Made by a program: the position numbers and the translations under genes. The notes below the pieces were generated by a model that saw nothing but the letters and a program-made list of their open reading frames with translations, was not told the origin of the DNA and searched no databases. From Ignavibacteria bacterium (GTDB lineage Bacteria; Bacteroidota; Ignavibacteria; Ignavibacteriales; Ignavibacteriaceae), in NCBI GenBank assembly GCA_017302895.1, contig JAFLBV010000002.1, forward strand, positions 496,001 to 560,000: DNA of 64,000 nucleotides, read 5' to 3'. Of this stretch, positions 61,460 to 64,000 are shown in pieces (position 1 is the stretch's first letter; each line of letters opens with the position of its first letter).

Positions 61460-62371
61460 TTAATAAAGTCCTTCTATCGAAAGGTATCTTTCACCTGTAT
61501 CGTAGTTGAAAGTAAGGATTTTCGATCCGGCGGGTATCTCGGGAAGTTTTTTGGCAACGGCTGCAAGGGACGCTCCTGAAGAAACACCAATGAAAATTCC
61601 CTCTTCTGAAGCAGAGCGTTGAGCATAAGCATATGCTTCATCTTTTCCGACCTGGATTACTCCATCGAGTATCGGGAAATTCAGAATTGCAGGAACAAAT
61701 CCGGCACCAATTCCCTGAAGAGGATGTGGTGATGGTTTTCCACCGGAAAGCACCGGTGAGAGTTCGGGTTCTACAGCGAATACCTTAAGATTCGGAAATT
61801 TCTCTTTCAAAATTTCCGCGACACCTGTTATGTGACCGCCTGTTCCAACTCCTGTGATTATGTAGTCCAGACCGTCAGGAAAATCATTCAGTATCTCGAG
61901 GGCAGTGGTTTTTCTGTGAATTTCGCTGTTCGCCTCATTTTCAAATTGCTGTGGCATCCATGCATTTGGATTTACTGCAACGAGCTCCTTTGCTTTCTCG
62001 ATTGCTCCTGACATCCCCTTCTCTCTGGGAGTCAGTTCAAATTTTGCTCCATAAGCCGACATGATTTTTCTTCTCTCAATCGACATCGATTCCGGCATAA
62101 CCAGTACCAGTTCATAGCCTTTTACTGCCGCTACCATGGCGAGTCCGATTCCAGTATTACCGGAGGTGGGCTCAATTATTACACTTCCTTTTTTCAGGAG
62201 GCCCTTTTTTTCAGCATCTTCAATCATGGCGAGAGCGATTCTGTCCTTTATGCTGCCACCCGGGTTGGCTTTTTCGAGCTTGATCCAAACCTCATGATCA
62301 CTACCGTATAATTTGTTCAGTTTTACATGAGGGGTGTTTCCAATTGTCTCAAGAATATTATTGTATCTCAT
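61460..62371 (-). CDS. cysK: Cysteine synthase A (O-acetylserine sulfhydrylase)
   Basis: PLP enzyme that makes cysteine from O-acetylserine and sulfide. In the 303-residue protein the PLP lysine is Lys42 ([11 protein letters not shown]), and [15 protein letters not shown] and [12 protein letters not shown] hold the cofactor and substrate. I place the start at 62371 because GGAG lies seven bases upstream; an ATG 12 nt earlier overlaps that site. It follows cysE by 21 nt and completes the two-step pathway. Expression is probably set by the leader ORF upstream of cysE. Confidence 0.95.
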
Positions 62372-62392
62372 TTTATTCTCCATTTAATTTAG

Positions 62393-63235
62393 TTAAATTA
62401 CAAAATCAAGAACGGGATCGTGCTTCCCGTTAAATTTAAGTCTTACCTCACTTTTGTGCAGAACCACTGAATCCGGTGGAACACTCTCGGTCACCCAGGC
62501 ATTTCCACCAACAACACTGTTTCTTCCTATCACAGTTTCTCCTCCGAGAATGACCGCCTGTGCGTAGATAATCACATCATCCTCAATGGTTGGATGCCTC
62601 TTCTGACTTGCTAGTGATTTATCAACACTGACAGCACCGAGTGTAACACCCTGATAAATTTTCACGCGGGAGCCGATTATGGTAGTCTCCCCGATTACGA
62701 TTCCCGTCCCGTGATCGATGCAGAATGATTCCCCGATTTCAGCTCCGGGATGTATATCTATCCCCGATCTCTCGTGTGCGTATTCTGAAAGAATTCTCGG
62801 GATAACCGGAACACCCAAAAGGTAAAGCTCGTGCGAAAGCCTGTAGATTGTGATGGCGAAAAAACCCGGATATGCCAGAATGACCTCGTCCTGATTCTTT
62901 GCAGCGGGATCACCATTAAATATGGCCTCGGCATCCTTGTCGAGTTTTCTTATTATTTCCGGTAGTGCCGATGCAAACTGATCAACCGTTTGATCAACCT
63001 CCCTTTTATCTTCAATCACCGATCCGACAAGCTTCTTCAAATCATACATTAAAAGAATTGCAGCCGATTCTATTTCCTCAATTTTCTCGAATGATTTTTC
63101 GGAGTATTGCGGAAAAGCCAGTTTCAAAAATTTATCTATGAACTTCCTGCTCTCATCCTTAAGAGGAAGCATGCACTGATGATCTTCATATTTTTTTATC
63201 ACTTGAGAGGCAAACTCTCTGATCGCTTTGTTCAT
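62393..63235 (-). CDS. cysE: Serine O-acetyltransferase
   Basis: First step of cysteine synthesis: acetyl-CoA and serine give O-acetylserine. In the 280-residue protein the N-terminal helical part (to about 130) precedes a left-handed beta-helix with repeats typical of the family: GIDIHPGAEIGESFCIDHGTGIVIG, with the catalytic Asp-His pair, then YQGVTLGAVSV and KRHPTIEDDVIIYAQAVILG. The C-terminal tail is not the short Ile-ending tail of E. coli CysE. A poly-cysteine leader ORF lies 74 nt upstream. Confidence 0.95.
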   Translation of the reverse strand: MNKAIREFASQVIKKYEDHQCMLPLKDESRKFIDKFLKLAFPQYSEKSFEKIEEIESAAILLMYDLKKLVGSVIEDKREVDQTVDQFASALPEIIRKLDKDAEAIFNGDPAAKNQDEVILAYPGFFAITIYRLSHELYLLGVPVIPRILSEYAHERSGIDIHPGAEIGESFCIDHGTGIVIGETTIIGSRVKIYQGVTLGAVSVDKSLASQKRHPTIEDDVIIYAQAVILGGETVIGRNSVVGGNAWVTESVPPDSVVLHKSEVRLKFNGKHDPVLDFVI

Positions 63236-63309
63236 TTATTGCTCGGATTACGCCCAAAAGGGCAATTTTATGGAAATTAATTGTGTAAAAAGTTGGAAAT
63301 GGTGCTGTT
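63236..63309 (-). other. Leader-to-cysE spacer with short hairpin
   Basis: Seventy-four bases between the leader stop codon and the cysE start. It contains a small GCCC-TTTT-GGGC hairpin (63252-63263), ending about 17 nt before the ATG, and a five-U tract. A hexamer just after the leader stop (minus-strand ACAGCA, 63303-63308) can pair with Cys codons 26-27 (TGCTGT). No strong stem-plus-U terminator was seen. Confidence 0.4.
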
Positions 63310-63420
63310 TTAAGCTTGGAAGCTGCAACAACAACAGAGACAGCAACAACAGTTGCCGTTAAAGAGGGTGAAGCTTTTGGATTGTGCTTCGGTTTGAAAT
63401 GAGGATAATGTCGCTATCAT
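63310..63420 (-). CDS. Poly-cysteine leader peptide, candidate cysteine attenuator
   Basis: A 36-codon ORF (ATG at 63420, TAA at 63310-63312) directly upstream of cysE-cysK on the same strand. Codons 24 to 32 read CCCCLCCCC: eight Cys codons (six TGT, two TGC) in nine, at 63325-63351, four codons before the stop. The rest of the peptide (MIATLSSFQT... then NGN) has no other bias. Ribosomes short of charged Cys-tRNA would stall there, which is the logic of an attenuation leader for amino-acid synthesis genes. It has no clear ribosome-binding site, and a TATAAT overlaps its ATG, so a leaderless or internal start is possible. On the other strand the same bases read as a (CAR)n repeat, so chance cannot be fully excluded. 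Confidence 0.65.
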   Translation of the reverse strand: MIATLSSFQTEAQSKSFTLFNGNCCCCLCCCCSFQA

Positions 63421-63424
63421 TATA

Positions 63425-63452
63425 ATGTTGTAACATCGAAAATCTGTTTTCG
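63425..63452. promoter_or_regulatory. Two adjacent dyads upstream of the leader ORF
   Basis: ATGTTGTAACAT (63425-63436, arms ATGTT/AACAT) is directly followed by CGAAAA-TCTG-TTTTCG (63437-63452). They lie 5 to 32 nt before the leader ATG. They may be protein-binding sites or the end of a 5' leader; no regulator is known. Confidence 0.35.
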
Positions 63453-63581: not shown

Positions 63582-64000
63582 ATGAGTTATCACACAATCG
63601 CGTATAGTAACAAACTCGCACTGCCCCTAAGGAAAGAGCTTGAAAGAATATTCTTTTTCAATCTGAACCAGTCATCCCACCTCGATAAAATTCAAAAAAC
63701 CATCGAATCCGACGGCTTGATAAGCATAATCGAAGAAAAGGATCACCTTAAACTTCAGTTTGAAAAAAGTGAGACGGAATCCCTGTTCGCCCTCGACAGT
63801 GAAAAAAATGACGCCGCACTTCTTGGTGTCATATGCTACAAGTTCCAAAACGAAAAATGTCATATTCTTCATATCGCCGTCGACCCCGATTGCGCTACTA
63901 AAGGACACTTTGAGTCGGAACTTCTTACCTACCGGTTAATCGAAAAAGTAAGAAAGATCGCCGTCAATAAACGGGTCGAAAGTCTTGTTCTCCCCTATAC
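63582..64000 (+). CDS. Unassigned protein, N-terminal part (possible GNAT-like)
   Basis: An ATG at 63582 opens a frame that stays open through the window edge (139 codons). The translation starts MSYHTIAYSNKLALPLRKEL. The later part LLGVICYKFQNEKCHILHIAV, then FESELLTYRLIEKVRKIAV, has the beta4-beta5-alpha pattern of an N-acetyltransferase, but lacks a clear acetyl-CoA loop (R/QxxGxG/A). The even codon use and upstream promoter candidate support a real gene. An overlapping minus-strand frame at 63672-63908 is judged a shadow. Confidence 0.6.
   Translation, partial: MSYHTIAYSNKLALPLRKELERIFFFNLNQSSHLDKIQKTIESDGLISIIEEKDHLKLQFEKSETESLFALDSEKNDAALLGVICYKFQNEKCHILHIAVDPDCATKGHFESELLTYRLIEKVRKIAVNKRVESLVLPY

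Follow-up and report, generated by a model that had tools for sequence, protein, structure and literature searches.

Leader peptides rich in the amino acid made by the operon that follows them are textbook regulators in Proteobacteria, with the trp and his attenuators as the standard examples. For cysteine, the closest described systems are the leaderless, poly-Cys short ORFs of mycobacteria, which are cysteine-responsive attenuators (Canestrari et al. 2020, as cited in PMC9031893 and PMC13236596). Cys leaders without terminators have also been predicted in Actinobacteria (Seliverstov et al. 2005, PMC1262725), and the uORFC-8-2 motif, found before cysS in Rhodobacterales, is a two-Cys leader with predicted ribosome-mediated attenuation (PMC8632094). 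Within the wider phylum of the DNA studied here, a general statement in part of PMC9723704 describes signs of leader-peptide attenuation in the amino-acid operons of Flavobacterium psychrophilum; the regulatory logic is the same as that considered below, but that part of the paper names neither a cysteine case nor a poly-Cys leader.

The window, that is the whole 64,000-nucleotide stretch that was analysed, contains a comparable arrangement on its minus strand. Here, a complete ORF of 36 codons (63310..63420; ATG at 63418-63420, stop TAA at 63310-63312) encodes the peptide MIATLSSFQTEAQSKSFTLFNGNCCCCLCCCCSFQA, in which codons 24-32 (63325..63351) read CCCCLCCCC. Codons 24-27 and 29-32 of this run are the Cys codons that form the proposed sensor. 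The leader stop lies 74 nt from the ATG (63235) of cysE (62393..63235), which is followed after 9 nt by cysK (61460..62383), so that the reading of the sequence bears out the ORF, run, spacing and common strand given in the original prediction. The 307-aa CysK is a cysteine synthase A (TIGR01139, 414 bits, over the cut-off). The 280-aa CysE is a serine O-acetyltransferase of the CysE/EpsC type: it exceeds the cut-off of NF041874 for EpsC-type serine acetyltransferases (160.7 against 150 bits), scores below that of TIGR01172 (168 against 210.65 bits) and matches Pfam SATase_N and hexapeptide repeats. The order cysE-cysK is retained in most of the leader-bearing loci examined. The intergenic region of the leader is shared with a divergent plus-strand gene (63582-63998), whose product has a weak, below-cut-off match to GNAT acetyltransferases (PF00583).

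The leader therefore resembles each of the described systems in part. Like the trp and his attenuators, it places a cluster of codons for the product amino acid in a short, same-strand ORF upstream of the operon; it differs from them in having neither a terminator nor an antiterminator. Like the mycobacterial ORFs, it is short, has contiguous Cys codons near its stop, precedes cysteine genes and shows no obvious terminator, but it differs in phylum and in the genes that follow (cysE-cysK), and it starts with an ATG. It shares with uORFC-8-2 a leader ORF with Cys codons, although that motif has two such codons, precedes cysS rather than cysE, belongs to Alphaproteobacteria and includes a terminator. 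Two cautions attached to the original prediction also held: there is no U-tract terminator from the Cys run to cysE, and no clear ribosome-binding site was seen at the leader start. The branch to which the window belongs largely lacks Shine-Dalgarno initiation, and poly-Cys leaders, known in Actinobacteria, are now seen in such a branch. A search of Rfam found no element or riboswitch near cysE.

The leader was compared between the window genome and three congeners (G076, G075 and G074). CysE of G076 is 99% identical to that of the window in protein and 87% in DNA, and CysE of G075 is 80% and 72% identical, respectively. In both genomes a leader is found directly before cysE (MIKEFYPIHPEALTGVFTRSACNCCCCLCCCCGC in G076; NKTQNTTPEATIKSFTPSFGNHCCCRLCCCC in G075, preceded by its TTG start codon). 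The G075 leader has no in-frame ATG and requires the TTG. Codon 24 is where the Cys run begins in the window, G076 and G075 alike, and 74-77 nt separate the leader stop from cysE. Between the window and G076, codons 1-23 are identical at 41/69 nt and the Cys run at 27/27; the corresponding values are 22/69 and 22/27 for the window and G075, and 30/69 and 22/27 for the remaining pair. Only 1-7 of the 23 residues outside the run are alike in any pair, which is less than one third, and what is retained is therefore the run together with its frame and position. This is the outcome that the original prediction had looked for among relatives, with frame and nearby stop kept and flanks diverged. The Cys codons of the leader are under selection, and the ORF is conserved in place and frame and is associated with cysE. 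The fourth genome, G074 (L007), has three Cys-rich frames about 350 nt upstream of cysE. Within its CysE lies an insertion that contains a 27-nt tandem repeat (L007 1205-1335, 4.9 copies).

Beyond the genus, cysE homologues were collected at the family, order, class and phylum levels, and their upstream stretches were compared. With a first-round definition, which asked for an ORF that has a start codon and CCC among its final 16 residues, Cys-run leaders were found before cysE in 34 of 184 upstream regions, against a mean of 0.34 (maximum 2) in 100 dinucleotide shuffles and none on the antisense strand of the same 184 regions. With a wider definition, for which the antisense control gave 1/227, a Cys leader precedes 40 of the 42 cysE genes of the sister family (f2); 25 of these leaders are poly-Cys, and the other 15 belong to a second type described below. 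From the matching upstream sequences of two members, f2 is probably Melioribacteraceae. Leaders are present in 7/12 cases in family f5 and are absent before cysE in 29 genomes of other classes. In the family of the window, 4 of the 27 genomes with cysE have a leader, namely its own genus and one other genome, and the other 23 have none. In two leader-less loci of this family, L005 (G001) and L006 (G053), the gene adjoining cysE upstream resembles an ABC-transporter ATPase. In Melioribacteraceae, cysE appears to be controlled as a rule by a cysteine sensor, which also occurs in a single genus of a neighbouring family of Ignavibacteriales.

The second leader type ends in [Y/F]xTCxC-stop, with a consensus that is mostly [GS]Y[FLIY]x[TSA]C[ILVM]C-stop (for example GYFSTCIC, GYLFTCIC and GYYYTCIC, each followed by the stop). 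The 15 members are L110, L111, L116, L130, L131, L139, L140, L143, L149, L267, L268, L273, L274, L275 and L278. Their second Cys codon is always TGT. Elsewhere in the motif synonymous bases vary (TAT/TAC, TTT/TTC, GGA/GGT/GGG, ACT/ACC) and the peptide end is kept, and selection on the encoded peptide is therefore favoured. With this form the question arises whether cysteine could be sensed by a nascent chain. A broader proposal, rather unlikely as a whole, sees in this lineage a so far unreported family of cysE cysteine sensors, made up of poly-Cys and two-Cys (TCxC) leaders. On this view the TCxC nascent peptide would itself bring about ribosome arrest, which would then not depend solely on a shortage of Cys-tRNA, and Rho would mediate the action of the two terminator-less types.

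Leaders of a different architecture occur in 12 relatives (e.g. L008, L041, L085, L115, L127, L129 and L153). Here, the Cys run is followed by several more codons of the ORF, and at a distance of 63-88 nt from the first Cys codon a strong hairpin begins that has a U-tract. The 5' arm of this terminator can be paired by a segment starting 4-23 nt past the Cys run better than by shuffled segments (Fisher p 1.4e-6 over the 12 relatives, some of which are close kin, and 8 of which taken singly fall short of p 0.05). About a dozen relatives, one of them in the family of the window, therefore carry Cys codons, an antiterminator segment and a Rho-independent terminator together. Judged from sequence, L008, L041, L085, L127, L129 and others have the geometry of the classical trp and his attenuators, including both the terminator and the antiterminator. 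In these forms, stalling of the ribosome at the Cys codons would leave the downstream segment free, and this would disarm the terminator.

In the genus of the window and in f2, the Cys run lies at the end of the ORF, abutting the stop, and there is no terminator; the distance from stop to start in f2 is mostly 50-60 nt. From the window leader to cysE no Rho-independent terminator was found and likewise no antiterminator, which would have nothing to pair with. In a quick CysE tree, terminator-bearing L008, which belongs to the family of the window, groups with terminator-less L112 and L122 with 99% support, and leader state agrees with the CysE gene tree more closely than in any of the shuffles. 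The two architectures are therefore best taken to be versions of a single system. Since both occur within one gene clade, comparative study can address how transcriptional attenuation is exchanged for other forms. The regulatory logic as such is known from mycobacteria. Within the searchable literature, no description seems to exist of its occurrence in this phylum, of forms that bear a terminator or of TCxC leaders; in that scope, the statement in the original prediction that no such case was known in the phylum agrees with the literature found. These terminator-bearing and TCxC forms are more novel than the window leader.

Taken together, the ORF is very probably a leader peptide gene, whose eight Cys codons sense the supply of charged tRNA-Cys and control the cysE-cysK operon. 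When cysteine is plentiful, the ribosome would reach the stop and depart, and expression of cysE-cysK would be held low. When cysteine is short, the Cys codons would be decoded slowly and the ribosome would stall in the run, its presence keeping expression on. Translation of the window ORF, the stalling and the output step are presumed in this scheme. Against control by the window leader stand the lack of a terminator and antiterminator there, folding in which the cysE start is not released, and the 23 of 27 leader-less genomes in the family. The original prediction had called the ORF a candidate cysteine-sensing attenuator. A cysteine-sensing leader is well supported because of conservation in the genus, the 40/42 in the sister family and the terminator/antiterminator apparatus in about a dozen relatives; in the strict sense of a terminator the word attenuator finds no support in the window leader, where the output step is one that we infer.

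For that step, Rho-dependent termination in the spacer (63236..63309, minus strand) comes first, with close to an even chance of being correct. As in tnaC, the C-rich, G-poor spacer (C 18, G 8) would load Rho unless a ribosome stalled on the adjacent Cys codons blocked access. This output is favoured because terminator-less spacers have more C than G when compared to leader-less relatives (p about 1e-6) and because a rho gene is found in the genome. The Cys run abutting the stop in terminator-less forms and the absence of a Rho-independent terminator from the window are consistent with it. However, an excess of C over G is weak evidence for Rho sites, the spacers have no conserved motif, and the signal in the window is modest, its value ranking only 3rd among 26 local genes (3/26 as high).

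The same spacer could instead be a zone of translational control, in which a stalled ribosome prevents the mRNA from folding over the cysE start; this is possible and more doubtful than Rho-dependent termination. Translational attenuation has reportedly been proposed for the mycobacterial poly-Cys short ORFs, with the stalled ribosome freeing the downstream start. In its favor, folding shows the cysE start region to be more occluded in the genus than in shuffled spacers (z 2.0, 2.6 and 1.65), and two hairpins on the minus strand recur with differing sequences in the window, G076 and G075, three being too few to call them conserved. P1 (63303..63333) joins the second Cys quartet to the sequence just past the stop and is similar in both G076 and G075 (p against shuffles 0.08 in the window, 0.01 in G076 and <0.01 in G075). 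P2, GCCCTTTTGGGC (63252..63263), ends 16 nt before the cysE ATG and is in the same place with a different sequence in the congeners (GCCTTCAAGGC and GTCCGATCCGGAC; p 0.05, 0.01 and 0.05). However, partition-function folding with and without a ribosome mask hardly opened the cysE start in the window (10.3 to 10.3 kcal/mol), so the mechanism reported for mycobacteria was not reproduced by folding there, although folding by itself could miss such a release. In addition, f2 leaders showed no excess occlusion of the cysE start in folding. A further difference from the mycobacterial ORFs is that relatives of the window carry true terminators. A search for conserved structure in the terminator-less f2 spacers with RNAalifold came back empty. 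The only terminator-like call in the leader region falls on the first Cys quartet, where a weak hairpin (GGCAAC/GUUGCU; 63340..63359, minus strand) may act as a pause hairpin.

It is very unlikely that the ORF instead encodes a functional small Cys-rich protein, with a metal or redox role, and is no cis-acting sensor. An intact ORF with many Cys codons would fit such a protein, but the number of Cys codons per leader ranges from 2 to 8 and the remainder of the peptide is barely conserved. A Pfam search with the leader peptide matched no family, the ORF is positioned just before cysE, and terminator switches accompany the leader in relatives.

The original prediction had also cautioned that the run is a (TGT/TGC)n repeat. 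Its codons are indeed TGT and TGC, but it is not a plain repeat because a CTC (Leu) codon interrupts it, in frame, in the window, G076 and G075. The 27-nt pattern (TGY)4NNN(TGY)4 has a single match in the 3.98-Mb genome, which is the window leader, and its reversed control has none. The other (TGY)4 tracts examined as further leaders are out of frame and in or near unrelated genes, and not one of them forms the leader of a cysteine gene; a (TGY)4-stop pattern searched across the order was uninformative. A (TGY)n microsatellite arising by chance or slippage, suggested by the TGT/TGC repeats and by such tracts elsewhere in the genome, can be practically dismissed, given 34 observed leaders against 0.34 expected, the frame and position kept in diverged congeners and the wider-definition leader counts in relatives, which contradict it.

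Upstream of the window leader, the 12-mer GATGTTACAACA (63426..63437, minus strand) is a possible promoter or operator element. It also occurs at -206 from cysE in G075 and at -218 in L110 of the sister family, and thus lies upstream of three diverged leaders. The 12-mer contains the inverted repeat TGTT-AC-AACA. As a regulon site it was rejected: its core, ATGTTACAAC, has 10 matches in the genome compared to 15 for the reversed pattern, which is no enrichment. The Bacteroidota -7 box, TAnnTTTG, is placed at -12 to -5 in PMC9723704. This box was not found before the window leader. Of 51 leader starts, 18 have it within the preceding 75 nt, compared to 5.4% of background windows. In L130, L139 and L275 it begins 12 nt before the ATG, and with the published position (PMC9723704) a leaderless start is therefore predicted for these three.
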